From a virus: a DNA stretch of 21,402 bases. Positions 2,262 to 10,984 of this stretch are shown piece after piece. Where the stretch lies: positions 1 to 21,402 of IMG/VR virus record IMGVR_UViG_3300046501_000195; one strand, given 5' to 3'. The position numbers and the translations under genes were made by a program. Each line of letters begins with the position of its first letter. The stretch's first letter is position 1. The notes below the pieces were generated by a model. That model had not been told where the DNA came from. It saw nothing but the letters and a program-made list of their open reading frames with translations, and made no database searches.

Positions 2262-3197
2262 TCAGGCGGCGATACGGTGTTCATAGAACGGATGCTGCTT
2301 GTCGTCGAAGATGTCGTAGAGCGCATGCAGGTTGGTCGGGTCCGGGTTGAGCCAGGCGTCGATGTGCTCGGGCTTGATATTGATGATCGTCCGGTCGTGG
2401 CCGGCGGCGGCCACCTCGGGCTCCGGATCGTCGGTGACCGCAGCAAAGCTCAGCAGGTCCGGCTCCACGCCCTTGGGGTCGGTCCAGTGCGACCACAGGC
2501 AAGCGATCAGCATTCGCTCGCCGGTGCGCGGCACGAACTCTAGGATCTTGTTCTCGCCCTCTACTTCTACGTGCTCGTAGAAGCGATCGGCGACCATCAG
2601 GCCGTGCGTGTGGCCGAACTGCCCGCGCCAGAAGCCTTCCAGGTTGTCGCGCCGGGCGTTGTAGGTGCCGGGGTACTGCCGATCGTAGGCCGCGGGCTTG
2701 CCGTCGGGCCGGCACTGGTAGCGCATCGGCTTGACCACGCGCTGGCCACCCTCCCACACCATGACCGGGCAATAGACACCCGGATAGATCCGGCTGTCGT
2801 CGGGCTCCATGTCGGTGCGCTTGAGCGCGTCCAGGCGGCGGCGGGCGGCCTTGCCTTTGTTTGTGCCGATGCGCACGTCTTCCTGCGCCTTCTTCGTCGG
2901 CTTGGCTGCCAGGGAACGCTGCGCATCGGCCACGCGGCGCCGCAGGGCGAAAAGCTCCTCTTCTAGAGCCGACATCGTTGCCGCATCGGCCTCGAGCAAG
3001 TTCTCGCGTAGCTCAGGCGGCCCGATCTGCTGCAGCTCCCGAATCATGGCACGGGGCGCCTTGGCCAGGCTCTTGCGCAGCGGGTCCCTGCCCCTCTCCC
3101 ACCAGAACGTTTTGACGTAGGTGTTGAGATCCATCACCGCGCCAAAGGCGCGCTGGAACTGCTTGAACTCGGCTTGGACCTGGGCGGAATAGCACAT
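2262..3197 (-). CDS. SRAP (HMCES/YedK-type) abasic-site protein, long form
   Basis: This 311-residue SOS-response-associated peptidase family protein would form a covalent thiazolidine link with abasic sites in single-stranded DNA, shielding them at replication forks. Family residues are present: Cys2 directly after the initiator Met (MCYSAQ), Asn180-Ala-Arg182 in GTYNARRDN, Glu208 in RFYEHV and His267-Asp-Arg269 in AAAGHDRTI. It is longer than the roughly 220-residue E. coli YedK because of a helical, charged insertion (about residues 40-130) between Cys2 and the core. Start ATG 3197 is fixed by the required Cys2; no strong Shine-Dalgarno is seen. It heads a minus-strand operon with two small genes and is a typical prophage-carried accessory gene. 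Confidence 0.93.
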   Translation of the reverse strand: MCYSAQVQAEFKQFQRAFGAVMDLNTYVKTFWWERGRDPLRKSLAKAPRAMIRELQQIGPPELRENLLEADAATMSALEEELFALRRRVADAQRSLAAKPTKKAQEDVRIGTNKGKAARRRLDALKRTDMEPDDSRIYPGVYCPVMVWEGGQRVVKPMRYQCRPDGKPAAYDRQYPGTYNARRDNLEGFWRGQFGHTHGLMVADRFYEHVEVEGENKILEFVPRTGERMLIACLWSHWTDPKGVEPDLLSFAAVTDDPEPEVAAAGHDRTIINIKPEHIDAWLNPDPTNLHALYDIFDDKQHPFYEHRIAA

Positions 3198-3926: not shown

Positions 3927-6457
3927 TCAGACAGGAAGCCCTCGCGTTTCGTTGGTGAGGTAGGCCAGCAGATCCGCCGGCACCACATCGCCACCGACTG
4001 CGCAGCTACTCAGATCCGCGGTGCTGATGCTGCGCTGGCCGTAAACGTTACCGATAGCGAGCCGGGCACCGATGGCCAACGCTTTGACCACGTTAGTCAG
4101 CGCGACGGTGACAGTCCCCGCGATCGCAGTGCCATCCACCTGCAGCGCCGCCGTGGCGGCATCAAGGTCGACACTGAGCACGGCACGCTTGAATCCACTT
4201 CCGCTCAAACCCGGCACCGTCCAATCAACCTGAGCGGCGGTGCCGCCGAGATCCCTGGCGATGAAGCGCACGAGGTTGGCGCCGGCCAGAAATAGTGCCC
4301 ACCCACCCACGTCGCTGCGCGTCGGATCACCCTCGCCAATCAACCCCTGTGCAGAGCCCGGCGTTCCGACCTGCCGCAGCACAAGGCCGACTGCCAACTT
4401 TCGTCCATGCGCCGCCGGCGGCGGGACGGTGACGGTGTACTGACAGATGACGTGAAGCGCCGGCGCAGCCTCGGTGTGATACCCCCCATCGTTGGCGACG
4501 AACAACGCGCCTTGGCCGTTTGCCCAAAGTCCTTCAATCGACTGCGAGCTCACCAGGCCTAGATAGGACGCCACCACGCCGTTGGTGATGGCGTCGCGCA
4601 CCTCCACGTTGCCGTTCGTGCCGTTCGCGCCGTAGCTCGTGTAGAGGTACTTATTGAGGTCATCCCAGTGCAACTGATCCGCAGATGCTTGCACGGTGCA
4701 CGTGTCGAGCGCAGCCCCGTCGACGCAAGAGCGCAGGTAGCAGGTCGGAGAATTGGAGATCGAGATCCACAGCGCGTCGCGGCTGGGGACGTACGCAATG
4801 CCATTGGGCTCGCCGATGGCAGATACATCGATTTCGTCGGTGAGCTTTACGCCCGCGCGCGTGATGTGGCGAACCTTCTTGTTGGCCGTGTCGACAAACC
4901 AGATGCTGTCGTCCGTGCTGTCCCAGGCCACCCCCTGGATACCCTGGATGCCAGGGAAGTCGGCCGCCAGCAGCGGGATCTCTTTCACCAGCTTGCGCCG
5001 GCTGGGAGACAGGATCTCAATCGCCGGCGTGAATGGCGAAGTGAACGTGGCTTGCCCGAAGTTGCCGACCAGCCAGTAACCCGCCGCATCCCTGGTCATG
5101 CCGGTACAGGTGAAGCCGCCGGACGTCGGCGAAGCCAGCGGCGCCGTTGGCACGTCCACCACCTCGACCAGGCTGTGGGCAGCAGACCCAAGAGCCGCCG
5201 TCCCGGCGCCATCTGCCAAGAGGATGGGCGCGCGGCCGGCCGTCGCCACGATGCCGCGCCGATCAATGGCCGGCGTGGAGCTGCGCGAGGTCAAGGCGAT
5301 GGCGCCGTCCTGAGACGCCCAACGCCGCGCCAGGCCGTTGTTCGAAGCCAGCTCGCGCGCACTGAAGTAGAAGTTCACGCCAGCGACCGTGCATGGCCCC
5401 AGTGCGCTGGAGAGCAGCGCGCCGCGCGCGTCGCGCCAAATCCCGTCGGCTTTATAGGCAGCATCGGGCCCGATGGGCAGGTCGGTCACAACTACCGATT
5501 GAGCGTCGACCACTCCCTGCACCGCTGAAGCGGCAGTATTGACCACTGCGCTTCGACCTTCCTGGAGCGCCTTGACCGCAGCGCCGGTGGCAACCTGGCT
5601 CTGATAGCTGAGCTTGGCACCAAACTGCCACGTATTGGCCGTTGCCGCTGCGGCGGTACCGCTGGCTGCGTCATAGGCGATGCTGGCAACCGCAAAGCCA
5701 GCCACGCCGTTGCGATACGACAGGATGCTGGCTGGCGCGGAAATGCCTACGACCTGTCCGGCCTGCACCGCGATCAAGCCGAAATCGGTCGAGGTCAGTG
5801 TCTTTGCCCCTGCGCTGGCGATCGACACCTCCTTTGCGCTGAGCCGCGTATAGGTGGTCCCGGAGACGGCGTAGACGCACACCTTGATCGTGGCGGCAGC
5901 CAAGGCATAAAGGCTAAGCGCGTAGAGGAGTGAATCCTGATTCGCGGGCTGCGCGATGATGCGTGTATTGGCTCCAGCGACCGTTGCGCTGACAGGATCA
6001 ACTGTCAGCCCCATCGCCTGCAGCTTCGTCTCCATCAGAGCATCGACACGGGGGCTGATGGCACCGAGCGTGTCTGCACGCAGCCACTGCCAAACGCTAC
6101 CGCTCCAACGAAACTGTCCGGAGTTGCTGACGGAAGCGCCACTGACGGGGTCCACATGCGAACCGGTGTCGCCGATGACTTGGCCGCCCTCCCCAGCCAC
6201 TGTTCCGGCCCGCGCTGCCAGCGCGTTCCAGCTTGCCTCAACAAACGTTGCCTGTGCCGCCGCCTGAGCGCTGTCTGCATAGCTGGCAGCTTCGATCGCA
6301 AGTTGGCCTGCAAGTTGCGCGCTCGCCTCGGCGCCACTGTCGCCGTCAGCGCATCGGTCTGGAAGACATCGATCTGCTGGTCCTTGAATCCATTGGTCTT
6401 GTCGACCAGGTCAACGACCTGGGCGGAAAGCTCTGCGTAACTGATGGGGTCTGCCAT
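3927..6457 (-). CDS. Tail fibre / receptor-binding protein, frameshifted near its 5' end
   Basis: This is the last gene of the tail operon, 33 bp after the tail-tip gene. Translation from ATG 6457 gives MADPISYAELSAQVVDLVDK... and reads well to about residue 40 (nt 6338). The fibre-like sequence (EASAQLAGQLAIEAASYADS, then AQAAAQATFVEASWNALAAR) then continues in the -1 frame to the stop at 3927. One missing base near 6290-6370 would restore an approximately 843-residue protein. In the long frame read from GTG 6200 (757 residues), residues 355-590 carry blade-like repeats (GMTRDAAGYWLVGNFG; GVAWDSTDDSIWFVDTANKK; NGIAYVPSRDALWISI; HWDDLNKYLYTSY; EGLWANGQGALFVAND) typical of an NHL/SMP-30-like beta-propeller. 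Residues about 597-757 look like a concanavalin/LamG-type jelly roll. The gene may be inactive, or the break may be a sequence error. Confidence 0.8.
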
Positions 6458-6490
6458 TGAGGTGCTCACTTGATCTGTGGTGGCGCCGCG

Positions 6491-9400
6491 TTATTCCGCG
6501 GATTTGTATTGGATGTTGTGGGTGGCCAGCGTGCGATCGACCGCGGTGCCGGCGAAGAACATGCGGTTGCCGAAGTCGGGCTTGCAGACCTTGCGGCGAC
6601 CAACGACGCGGATGTCGGCGACCTCCCAGTCATGGGCATGGGTCAGCAACTCATGGCCCGCCAGGTCAGGCGTGCGCACGATCGACCCGTCACGCATGTC
6701 CATCGGCGTGCTGCTGGACTGGATGACCTCCGCGTGCGCGGTGCTGACCACGTAGCAATCTTCAAAGCCGACACCCATGGCCAGCAGCGCCTGCCAGGTG
6801 CGAACCCCGGTGCGCACGTCGACGCATTCGACCAGCTCGCCCACCTGCAGGTCGCGCACGAATCGGCCATCGGGCAGCACGGTGGTCTCGTAGTCCACGC
6901 ACCAGGGCGTCGGGTCCACCGGGGTCACGCCGCCGCCGCTGCCGCTGCCCGTGGTGCCGGAGTTCTGCCCGGCCGGGTTGGCCGACTCGTTGTAGTTCTG
7001 GACGTTGACCTTGATGGACAGCGCCTGCGTGTTGCCCTGCGTGGTGCGTGCGCGAAAGGCCACCGTGTTCCACGTGTCGGCCGTGGTGTAGCGCACCTGC
7101 AGCGGGATCATGGCCTTGTTGGACACGTCCATGTTGACGGTCTGGATCTGCTGCCAGCTGCCGCTGTCGTATTGCACCTCCAGGATGATGGTCTCGCTGT
7201 TGCGGGCGCCGGCGCAGAACACGTCGATGAAGACGTCCGTGCGCTGGGCGGCGAAGCGTTTGCCGTGGAAGCCACTGCCGCTGGCCGGCCCGACAAAGCC
7301 GCTGACGGTCTGGGTGAAGTCCTGCCAGGCCGATCCGTTGATGGACGCAAAGGACACGTCCTGGATGGTGAAAGGCGCCAGGCGCCCGCCGCCGGTGTGG
7401 ATGCGGGTGGAGCCCAGGGCCAAGGCCGATGATTCCAGCAGCGAGGTGGTCAGCAGCCCGCGGATCTCCACGTCGCCGCCGAAGCGTGCCGAGCCGTCCT
7501 TGTTGATCTGCCAGCCGGTGTAGGTGTCGCTGGCGACGTCCCATTCGTAGTTGCTGGACTGGATGTAGGCACCGATCTTGGCGTTGGTGATCGAGGCGTC
7601 GCGGATCATGGCGTTGTTCATGTAGACCACGCCTTCGACCACCTGGAACGGGATATAGAACTGGGTCTGGATCACATCGCCGTCAGCGGTCGCGCCCACG
7701 CTGATGCCGGACAAGTAGGCCTTGCCGTCGACGGTGACCTGCGCGCGCACGCTCCAGCCGGCGCTGAGGCTGCCGTCTATGTTGGCCACGGCCTCGGAGG
7801 TCTCGTCGACCGCGGCGCGCAACGGGCCGACCTCAGCACTGACGATCTGCTGCGCGATCGCCGATGCGCCCTCGGCATCGACCTTCACCTTGTCCACGCG
7901 GGCGATGTAGGCCCGCGATGCGCGGCCGGACTCGTTGGTGTCGTTCTGGGCCAGCGCCTGGGCGACGATGGAGCTGGAGTGCTGGTCGATGTCCTCGATG
8001 ACCGCTGTCAGCTTGAGCTGGCTGTCGGTCAGCTGCTGGGTGACGCCCACCAGCTCCTCGCCCAGGTTGTTGGCCAGCACCCGCTGCACGGTCAACATGG
8101 TGTTGGACAGCGTGCCGCTGGTGTTCATGGCGCGCACGGCAAAGGTCCAGCTGCCCGACGCCGGCAGCGTCGATTCAAACGCGGTCGCGTGGTAGCCGGT
8201 GTCGTTGCCCAGCGGCGTCATGGCGGACCAGCTGGGCGCGCCCTCGCTGCCCTCGGTGTAGCGGATCTGCACGCCGGTGAAGTCCGGCGACTGGATGGTG
8301 TCCGTGTCAAAGGCCCAGCTGTAGCGTCGGATGCCGCCGGACAGCTCATCGATCGTGAAGCTGTCGATGTTGACCGGAGCACCGTCGGTGCCCGTGGTGG
8401 TGTACGTGCCGGACACGGCATTGCCCGCTTCGCCATCCAGGTTGAACGGCCGCACCAACACCGCATAGGTGCCCGCGCCCGGGATGCGCCAGCGCGCCGT
8501 GCGGCCGGTGGTCTCGGCGACCTGCTCCAGCTCCCCGTTGCCGCCGATGTCCGAATACACGCGCGTGACACCCACCGGCCCACTGACGTCGAACGTCGCC
8601 GCCAGCTGGGTGAACACCGTGTCGCCCTGCACCACCTGCGACTCGGTCACGGCTAGGTTGCTGGCGGTGGGTTTGGTTTGCAGCAGGCTCTGGTTGTCCG
8701 GCTTGCGGTACGTGCCGTTGATCACGTAGTCCCAGAACTCGTCGCTCTCCGGCACCACGGAGATGCTGGCACCCTTGAGGTCGGACTGCGGCTCGATGCC
8801 GGTCACGCGCACGCGGTAGCCGGGCGTCTGCTTGAAGTCGTAGATCCAGATGTGGTCGTCGGCTGGGTTTCCGTTGCCGGGCAGTGGAGCATCGCTCGGC
8901 CACGACTCATCCAGCACGATGTCTTGCGTGGTTCCGCTGAAGTTCCTGACTTTGATGACGCGGTAGACGCGCTCTCCCGGGACCCGCACTCCGATATAGG
9001 CGTTCCCCGCGGCTGGCGCAGGGACTGGCTCATCCAGGTGCAGCGTGGTCAAGCCGGCGCTGGTAGATGCACCTTTCAGGCGGCCGCCATAGCCCCACTG
9101 AGTCATGTCGTGCTGCAAGGCCAGCACCGACATGCGGCGGTAAGTCATGTGCTCAAGGTCGGTGTCGTAGCCGATCGACTTGAACTGGTACAGGCTTTGC
9201 CCGAGGTGGTAGCGCGCCATGATGGCCGCATGTGCCGCGGTGGTGATCCCTTCCCCTGAGACCTTGGCGGGATTGAGCGCGGTGAGAACGCCCGGTGCAT
9301 TCACGTAGATCGTCTGGCTGGACCAAGTGTCGCGATCGAAATACGTGTACTCGACGCCATCCGCACCAGCGACCAGCGAGTAGTCCACCTTGAAGCTAGA

Positions 9401-10984
9401 CGCCATGATGGTGGCCATGTTGACCACGCCGCTGACGGGCTGGTCCGCGCCAGCCCACACCACCGAGAACTTGCCGCCGGCCCAGCTGATCTGGCCCATG
9501 CCGGCCAGCGCGATGGTGTTGCATACCTCGTCGTGGGACTTGGCGTCCTTGACGATGTAGTCGTAGGTGTAGCTGTTGGCCGTGCAGTGGAGCATGAAGC
9601 CCTTCAGGGCCTCGATGTCGATCATGTCGTCGGTGAGACCCAGGCCGGCATAGCGGAGCGGGCCCTCCGGTGTTTGGATGTAATGCCCGCGCGCGTACTT
9701 CAGGAGCTGCGCGCCAGGGTTGGACAGACCACTTCCACGATCGGTCGCAGTGACCCAATCGCTGCCATTCCACACCGGGATTGGCTCGGCCTTCACTACG
9801 CCGCGGATCTCATCCGGGTAGCCGTTGAGCTGGCCCGTGGCCTTGATGCGAACACCGATGCGAGGGATTCCGGTGTAGTCGGCGTCGTCAGCCTGCACGC
9901 TGCCCAGCGTGGTCCAGTTGAACTTGTTGGTCTGCTGGTTGCTCCCGCTGTAGTTGCCTTCGCCGCGAATTCTTACGCGGACGTCGTACTGGCCACGATC
10001 CAGATCCTCAGAAAGGGTGACCCGTCGAATGGTGGTTTGATCGGAACTGGTGAACGTCCTCAGGATTAGATTGTCCCACGCACTCGCCCCGACCAATCGC
10101 GACTGCACTTCAACTGTCTCGCTGACCAAGTAATCCTTGCCACTGGTGCCAGTCCCACCCAGTGCGTATTCCAGATTGATCTGGACGCCTAGCGTTTCGG
10201 CGCTGGTAGTGCGCTGCACCCATGCCTGGGTGGCGGACAACTCACCGCCATCGATGGTGTCAACGTTGCTGAGTAGCGGAATGTCCTGATCGGTCATTCC
10301 AGGGAAGCCGTTGTACCAAGTGGTCACGCCGTCAAAGCTGCTCAGCAGGGCATCACCGTTGTAAAGGTCTCCGATCGATTGACAGTTCAGCCCAGGCGTG
10401 AAAATCATCGCCACGTACTGCTGGCTTCCGATGTAGTAGGTATAGGGCTGCGACAAGTAGTCCGGGGTGCTGCGGACCTCGCCAAAGGTCAGCGCGAACG
10501 GATCATAGGGACGCAATGCGTTCCGCGCTGCACCGATGTTGTAGACGCTGTCCTTGCTCTGCGTTCCAGATGCCGTCGGAGCCTTCGGGCCGAGCACTTT
10601 GTTGATCAGCATGGAGCCGACAACGAAGGTGGCCGCGTACGCCACGCTTGCACCTAGGGTCCCCAGGCCCGCAGCCCATGTCGCGCCAGCACCAGCGGTG
10701 AAGTAAATCAGCACAGCCATGGCGACGTAATACAGCGCGTTTTCGCCGAGGCCGCCGCGGACCTCGATCACTTGGCCGTTCTTCGGCTTGTCGTGGTGCC
10801 ATAGGTGCCGCTTAACCTCACGGTTTCCCACGGTTACCGCCCACGGCTGCCCGTCAAGATTCTCCACATGACGCTGCAAAAATGCGTACAGGCTCTCGCC
10901 AGGAAGCAGCTCCCACCGCTCAGACCGCTGTCCATCAATCAGGACCGGATGCGGCGTGACAGTGAGCTGGGTCATGTAGCCCAT
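6491..10984 (-). CDS. J: Tail-tip host-specificity protein (lambda I::J fusion) with C-terminal Hint domain
   Basis: This 1497-residue protein forms the tail tip and contacts the host receptor. The N-terminus (about 1-78) is a beta-grasp domain like lambda gpI, ending in VIEVRGG, followed by a hydrophobic stretch (about 84-128) as in gpI; the J body then begins. Two fibronectin-III-like domains (about 768-960), a heptad-rich region (about 970-1070) and a DUF1983-like segment (about 1080-1150, ending AKIGAYIQSSNY) are the J hallmarks. After a Gly/Ser/Pro-rich linker, residues 1362-1497 form a Hint domain: Cys1362 starts CVDYETTVLPDGR, then VGELVECVD, a STAH block with His1417, and a final FFAGTA...ATHN with His1489-Asn1490, six residues from the end. 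Start ATG 10984 has AAGGA eight bases upstream; ATG 10975 would instead overlap the K-like stop as ATGA. Confidence 0.93.
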   Translation of the reverse strand: MGYMTQLTVTPHPVLIDGQRSERWELLPGESLYAFLQRHVENLDGQPWAVTVGNREVKRHLWHHDKPKNGQVIEVRGGLGENALYYVAMAVLIYFTAGAGATWAAGLGTLGASVAYAATFVVGSMLINKVLGPKAPTASGTQSKDSVYNIGAARNALRPYDPFALTFGEVRSTPDYLSQPYTYYIGSQQYVAMIFTPGLNCQSIGDLYNGDALLSSFDGVTTWYNGFPGMTDQDIPLLSNVDTIDGGELSATQAWVQRTTSAETLGVQINLEYALGGTGTSGKDYLVSETVEVQSRLVGASAWDNLILRTFTSSDQTTIRRVTLSEDLDRGQYDVRVRIRGEGNYSGSNQQTNKFNWTTLGSVQADDADYTGIPRIGVRIKATGQLNGYPDEIRGVVKAEPIPVWNGSDWVTATDRGSGLSNPGAQLLKYARGHYIQTPEGPLRYAGLGLTDDMIDIEALKGFMLHCTANSYTYDYIVKDAKSHDEVCNTIALAGMGQISWAGGKFSVVWAGADQPVSGVVNMATIMASSFKVDYSLVAGADGVEYTYFDRDTWSSQTIYVNAPGVLTALNPAKVSGEGITTAAHAAIMARYHLGQSLYQFKSIGYDTDLEHMTYRRMSVLALQHDMTQWGYGGRLKGASTSAGLTTLHLDEPVPAPAAGNAYIGVRVPGERVYRVIKVRNFSGTTQDIVLDESWPSDAPLPGNGNPADDHIWIYDFKQTPGYRVRVTGIEPQSDLKGASISVVPESDEFWDYVINGTYRKPDNQSLLQTKPTASNLAVTESQVVQGDTVFTQLAATFDVSGPVGVTRVYSDIGGNGELEQVAETTGRTARWRIPGAGTYAVLVRPFNLDGEAGNAVSGTYTTTGTDGAPVNIDSFTIDELSGGIRRYSWAFDTDTIQSPDFTGVQIRYTEGSEGAPSWSAMTPLGNDTGYHATAFESTLPASGSWTFAVRAMNTSGTLSNTMLTVQRVLANNLGEELVGVTQQLTDSQLKLTAVIEDIDQHSSSIVAQALAQNDTNESGRASRAYIARVDKVKVDAEGASAIAQQIVSAEVGPLRAAVDETSEAVANIDGSLSAGWSVRAQVTVDGKAYLSGISVGATADGDVIQTQFYIPFQVVEGVVYMNNAMIRDASITNAKIGAYIQSSNYEWDVASDTYTGWQINKDGSARFGGDVEIRGLLTTSLLESSALALGSTRIHTGGGRLAPFTIQDVSFASINGSAWQDFTQTVSGFVGPASGSGFHGKRFAAQRTDVFIDVFCAGARNSETIILEVQYDSGSWQQIQTVNMDVSNKAMIPLQVRYTTADTWNTVAFRARTTQGNTQALSIKVNVQNYNESANPAGQNSGTTGSGSGGGVTPVDPTPWCVDYETTVLPDGRFVRDLQVGELVECVDVRTGVRTWQALLAMGVGFEDCYVVSTAHAEVIQSSSTPMDMRDGSIVRTPDLAGHELLTHAHDWEVADIRVVGRRKVCKPDFGNRMFFAGTAVDRTLATHNIQYKSAE

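Follow-up and report, generated by a model that had tools for sequence, protein, structure and literature searches.

The window analysed here is the whole of a 21,402-nucleotide stretch of viral DNA (IMG/VR record IMGVR_UViG_3300046501_000195, positions 1 to 21,402). Its tail-tip protein, hereafter J, is encoded on the minus strand (6491..10984, 1497 aa) and is clearly of the lambda type, matching the PHROG 31 central tail fiber J family (E = 1.5e-158) and the NCBIfam TipJ family (6.1e-50). Two minus-strand ORFs downstream of J (3927-6200, 757 aa; 6035-6469, 144 aa) have no PHROG match and probably encode further tail-fibre parts. A plus-strand ORF judged by eye to be a tyrosine-recombinase-like integrase (300-1496) lies beside the tail module and makes a temperate element probable. 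The window also encodes a protein starting MCYSAQ (2262-3197, minus strand), which we take to be like SRAP/HMCES-type proteins.

Three features, all on the minus strand, make up the C-terminal end of J. Residues 1201-1335 or thereabouts (6980..7384) are predicted by AlphaFold2 to form a TNF/C1q-like jelly roll (pLDDT 84), for which VIA returned matches of moderate score to the TNF-like lectin PLTL (Z 8.4), the C1q head (8.3) and lambda gpJ residues 987-1126 (7.9). The latter is the LamB-binding end of lambda gpJ, and the predicted jelly roll of J probably sits where lambda J has its receptor-binding end. A scan of viral contigs with this domain gave almost nothing, with one weak partial match, and it was absent from all phage records searched. 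There follow a flexible Gly/Ser/Pro linker (residues 1339-1361, 6902..6970), comparable to Gly/Ser/Pro-rich linkers in the relatives described below, and a predicted Hint domain with a short C-tail (residues 1362-1497, 6494..6901), which on these models probably hangs by the linker from the receptor-binding end. The J proteins of phages Xp15 and CP1 have the J core in common with the protein studied here, but have different ends and no Hint domain. Loss of Hint from the Xp15-type J is only one possible direction of change, as the Xp15 protein terminates in a different C-terminal domain.

A Hint domain at this position had been proposed by the first-pass annotation, and structure prediction bears the proposal out. 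With the single J domain as query, no match was found in Pfam, NCBIfam or PDB sequences, a Pfam search with 15 family members gave nothing meaningful, and no Pfam, NCBIfam or PHROG model picks up the family. The best PDB match to the sequence profile was the Npu DnaE intein, aligned near end to end and weak (E = 0.09). An AlphaFold2 model of J residues 1352-1497, built on a 20-row alignment from iterated viral-contig searches, is confident (pLDDT 90, pTM 0.83). Compared with solved structures by Foldseek, it came closest to BIL2 of the Tetrahymena BUBL1 locus (2.6e-6), the gp41-1 intein and the bacterial intein-like (BIL) domain of C. thermocellum. VIA-align gave Z scores of 12.5-16.6 against about 50 entries, the highest being to the Ssp DnaB mini-intein (Z 16.6, 1.8 A over 126 residues); among the matches listed, all are inteins, BIL or Hedgehog domains. 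The register is exact: in several alignments the first intein residue pairs with model residue 11 (Cys1362) and the last with model residue 139 (Asn1490) (aligned ends MtuRecA 1-440, NpuDnaB to 139, gp41-1 to 125). With related sequences, a confident model and matches to solved structures behind it, the Hint-like signal first noticed in the sequence is real, and the C-terminal domain of J is predicted to adopt the Hint fold.

Residues of catalytic type were counted over 29 collected members of the family; some are mutually close, and this kinship means that the counts do not stand for 29 independent events. Cys1362 (6899..6901, minus strand) begins the domain directly after the linker, as first described, and is the structural equivalent of intein Cys1 and the predicted thioester nucleophile. 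Cys occupies this position in 29/29 members. The VGELV turn (1381-1385), FFAGT (1476-1480) and the terminal T1488-H1489-N1490 (block G; 6515..6523, minus strand) were likewise found where the annotation had placed them, and Asn1490 falls on the terminal Asn of the gp41-1, NpuDnaB and MtuRecA inteins. The final His-Asn is also present in all 29 members. Position +1 is indeed Ile1491, and a Cys, Ser or Thr is found there in one member alone (Ser in L024). The C-tail after Asn1490 is seven residues long rather than the six originally counted (I1491-E1497, IQYKSAE; 6494..6514, minus strand) and includes Lys1494. Across the family the tail varies from 4 to 11 residues and is otherwise scrambled (IQYKP, IAKQETIQQPV, AVKQIQ, VADQKM, ASISYEKM, IKMVDEAQA), yet it contains a Lys in 29/29 members. 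Cys1, His-Asn and the tail Lys are all kept at down to about 25% identity. A KP-stop sequence was considered as a conserved peptide signal and rejected, since only the Lys is general and, in part of the family, KP coincides with the coupled stop and ribosome site.

The block-B assignment, by contrast with the first reading, had to be moved. STAH (residues 1414-1417; 6734..6745, minus strand) had been taken as a TxxH block, but its His is not conserved, the counterparts in relatives reading TEHG, TPNG, TESG and TTSG, and it is not a functional block B. In the profile alignment the TKDH of Npu DnaE falls on S1423-S-S-T1426 of J, with Thr at the position of the His; the block-B equivalent is therefore S1423-S-S-T1426-P1427 (6704..6718, minus strand). 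T-P-M is invariant in alignment A4, and the same stretch reads SKDTPF in DLP_6. The block-B His is missing from 29/29 members, being replaced by Thr in 27 and by Ala in two (L058 and L059), and block F does not keep its usual Asp across the family. In most inteins the block-B His assists the first step. Some inteins nevertheless splice without it (PMC7664689), so that its loss alone does not imply inactivity.

A tblastn search with the last 136 residues of J matched a sole phage record, that of the jumbo phage LucasX (E = 9e-6). A family emerged when the search was iterated over viral contigs, and in it the Hint domain forms the end of otherwise unrelated proteins, namely epsilon15-like tail nozzles (the N-terminal half, in L028, L012, L006, L017 and L019), fibres with Fn3-type repeats and jumbo-phage baseplate-region proteins. 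The carrier is a 450-aa protein in LucasX-type jumbo phages, a 286-aa protein in XacN1 and an 1825-aa VlrC protein in DLP_6, where it adjoins baseplate wedge genes; the respective members LUCX_306, ORF231 and AAY80_267 are annotated as hypothetical or VlrC. Phage PhiXhv-12 has two Hint-bearing proteins, the second of which is encoded in the baseplate cluster (L068:5467-7010) by a gene overlapping that for a 2OG-Fe(II) oxygenase. Directly after a Hint-bearing gene of the same phage is that for a 140-aa stand-alone protein (L051:8423-8842, XYR92700.1), which has the look of a decayed Hint domain, lacking both Cys1 and the terminal Asn. Downstream of the tail genes of L034 is a 183-aa ORF (4896-5447) in which a lipoprotein-type signal (LVGC) and a short linker precede Hint, a predicted membrane-anchored stand-alone form; a protein encoded at 7451-8458, also downstream of those genes, is similar to the MCYSAQ protein of the window. 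The carriers typed so far are exclusively tail or virion-type proteins, and a search of plasmids for the family gave no match.

In these carriers the Hint domain could in principle act as an intramolecular chaperone and be removed once the tail tip has assembled. S74-type domains are chaperones cut from tail spikes, and the C-terminal position on trimeric-type fibre and tail proteins would suit such a role. However, the domain also occurs on nozzle halves, jumbo baseplate-region proteins and the predicted lipoprotein, which have no common folding problem, and the long flexible linker joins it to the carrier with no packing on the carrier. The L034 protein fits Hint as a working part, binding or conjugating, better than as a disposable chaperone, and we consider a chaperone role hardly probable.

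The relationships of the Hint domains do not follow those of their carriers. Outside J proteins, the closest relatives of the J domain are in nozzle proteins, where Hint is about 62% identical and the carriers are unrelated; between J and the nozzle L028, 62% of Hint residues are shared (dS 0.84) and the regions before Hint are unrelated. The Hint tree is discordant with the carriers. Nozzle domains group with J at one well-supported place (100/99) and with the fibres at another (98/92), and the starred branches require the nozzle label to have changed at least three times; apart from J and nozzle, carrier labels were set by eye and are rough. Between J copies dN/dS is 0.13-0.30, the ratios being approximate with dS near saturation, and the domain is under purifying selection. 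These sequence comparisons show the Hint domain to be a mobile module swapped among unrelated host-contact tail proteins, a point that the first-pass annotation had missed.

Several members divide the epsilon15-like nozzle into two ORFs (L028:3897-7070, L012/L029, L006, L017/L039 and L019/L041); in epsilon15 and Carin1 the nozzle is a single chain of about 825 aa. Hint closes the ORF for the N-half, and the ORF for the C-half begins 9 nt past the TAG. Read-through of this TAG into a spliceable nozzle precursor was considered, the next ATG being in frame 9 nt on. It was rejected: in several nozzle genes TAG-GAG both stops the Hint module and serves the following ORF as its ribosome site; since this site dictates the spacing, and equal spacing is found ahead of unrelated genes (L008, L009/L040), the spacing is not evidence for a precursor. 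Trans-ligation of the two halves by Hint was also rejected, as phage CP2 has the same nozzle split with no Hint domain and ligation is thus not needed for a split nozzle.

The family is concentrated in phages and prophages of the Xanthomonadaceae. Its profile was found in 8/395 genomes of this family (to which Pseudoxanthomonas belongs), the seed genome being one of the eight, versus 0/368 others from the class (Fisher p = 0.008), and in 3/299 genomes of an order-level sample. Among 50,697 phage records, all matches came from phages of Xanthomonas or Stenotrophomonas, apart from Erwinia phage Ep032, which is like the PhiXhv phages in size and similarity. A more distant viral protein, A0A6J5T0C5, has the same fold, and the wider family is therefore not confined to Xanthomonas/Stenotrophomonas-type phages. 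This distribution bears on whether the module might be a selfish, intein-derived mobile element, with tail genes as landing sites and self-removal that spares the carrier. Movement between unrelated genes would agree with such an element, as would the TAG-GAG ends of the nozzle genes. But no endonuclease or transposase is attached, and a neutral element would predict neither the restriction of typed carriers to tail and virion proteins nor the host bias, which makes this explanation very unlikely.

On the predicted fold and the conserved residues, we think it somewhat probable that a mobile auto-processing module of BIL-like type, with predicted catalysis, makes up the last 136 residues of J and is attached to its probable receptor-binding end. 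An N-S acyl shift at Trp1361-Cys1362 would form a thioester between the carbonyl of Trp1361 and Cys1362. With no +1 nucleophile in J, as in type A BIL domains, water or an amine would then resolve it; in type A BILs, which retain His-Asn, an amine that attacks the thioester can bring about the joining of fragments (PMC4031507). Asn1490, helped by His1489, would cyclise and free the short C-tail, so that the Hint part would be released or the new C-terminus of J transferred to an amine. Catalytic activity, the agent resolving the thioester and the timing are what we infer here. The retention of Cys1 and the terminal His-Asn in 29/29 members makes self-cleavage at Cys1362 plausible; their presence in every copy examined of a module found on unrelated host-contact proteins suggests a tail tip that cuts itself or attaches itself to another partner. 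Against auto-processing, the block-B His is replaced and the block-F Asp is not conserved, the invariant Cys and His-Asn could serve folding, and the lipoprotein form in L034 has almost nothing on its N-side worth releasing.

The same observations feed the main rival, which we consider possible but on balance unlikely: a catalytically silent Hint fold by which the tail tip would adhere or bind, with Cys1 and His-Asn as structural leftovers. Such a binder would agree with the absence of the block-B His throughout the family and with a host-biased domain on host-contact proteins. It would also suit the predicted lipoprotein, in which Hint makes up the bulk of the 183 aa as a self-sufficient domain might, and the PhiXhv-12 stand-alone relative without Cys1 and Asn. 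However, Cys1 and His-Asn are invariant in the 29 members, and a folding constraint alone would not obviously require exactly the catalytic residues.

Within auto-processing, the module might be a conjugating device in which the Cys1362 thioester passes the C-terminal end of the receptor-binding tail protein on to an amine, of Lys or otherwise. BIL2, from the ubiquitin-like BUBL1 locus of Tetrahymena, does this with ubiquitin-like domains. Its thioester is attacked by a Lys amine, which gives an isopeptide bond (PMC8616854). By analogy, the acceptor may be the protein's own invariant tail Lys, another virion protein or the bacterial surface. The invariant Lys and the closeness to BIL2 mean that conjugation, though unproven, has to be weighed seriously beside plain cleavage, and we rate it as quite unlikely; the fold alone does not choose between the two, because the Foldseek lead of BIL2 is slight. 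If conjugation is true, adhesion of these phages' tails includes a covalent step, which could explain a module common to unrelated phages of one host family and placed on host-contact proteins.

An active auto-processing module would give tail-tip maturation or host binding a self-processing or covalent step, of which no description for lambda-type J proteins was found in the papers searched. The Hint fold itself and phage proteins annotated as Hint are already known, and such proteins in BFVD have the same fold as the J domain. A family without the block-B His, with a Lys-containing C-tail and swapped among the host-contact tail proteins of phages that share one host family, was not found in the mostly open-access literature searched; it would be an unrecognised intein-like family moved by phages of different tail types onto host-contact proteins. 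Isolated phages (LucasX, XacN1 and DLP6) carry it, and the family is therefore testable now.

Compared with known systems, J has the horseshoe beta fold with pseudo-two-fold symmetry and the position-1 Cys of the Hint superfamily. It resembles class 1 inteins (Ssp DnaB mini-intein, gp41-1) in fold and end residues, but has Ile1491 in place of a +1 Cys/Ser/Thr, seven residues to the stop and so hardly any C-extein, and no block-B His. Class 3 inteins lack Cys1 and use a WCT triad with a block-F Cys nucleophile, whereas Cys1362 is present and invariant. Nor is there a homing endonuclease, the 136-aa domain having no insertion, as the first-pass annotation had it. The Hedgehog Hog domain (1at0, Z 15.1) is also a Hint fold at the C-terminus of a surface protein, but has a sterol-recognition region after Hint where J has its seven residues. 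In Hedgehog the thioester is passed to an outside nucleophile. BIL2 of BUBL1 (6tmm, 6y75) shares Cys1 and the terminal Asn and is the top Foldseek match, with other inteins scoring similarly; it has a catalytic His69 and zinc, whereas the family here has no block-B His and its use of Lys is suggested by conservation. The structure matches and residue counts agree with the earlier view that the J domain is closer to bacterial intein-like domains than to a splicing intein. Like the A-type BIL of C. thermocellum (2lwy, Z 14.8), it has the Hint fold, Cys1, a terminal His-Asn (H1489-N1490), no +1 Cys/Ser/Thr and no endonuclease, and sits on variable surface-type proteins. It differs in its S-x-x-T-P block B, in a tail of 4-11 aa with an invariant Lys where the BIL has further protein on the C-side, and in residing on phage tail proteins; as A-type BILs carry Thr-x-x-His in block B, we do not file the family among them.
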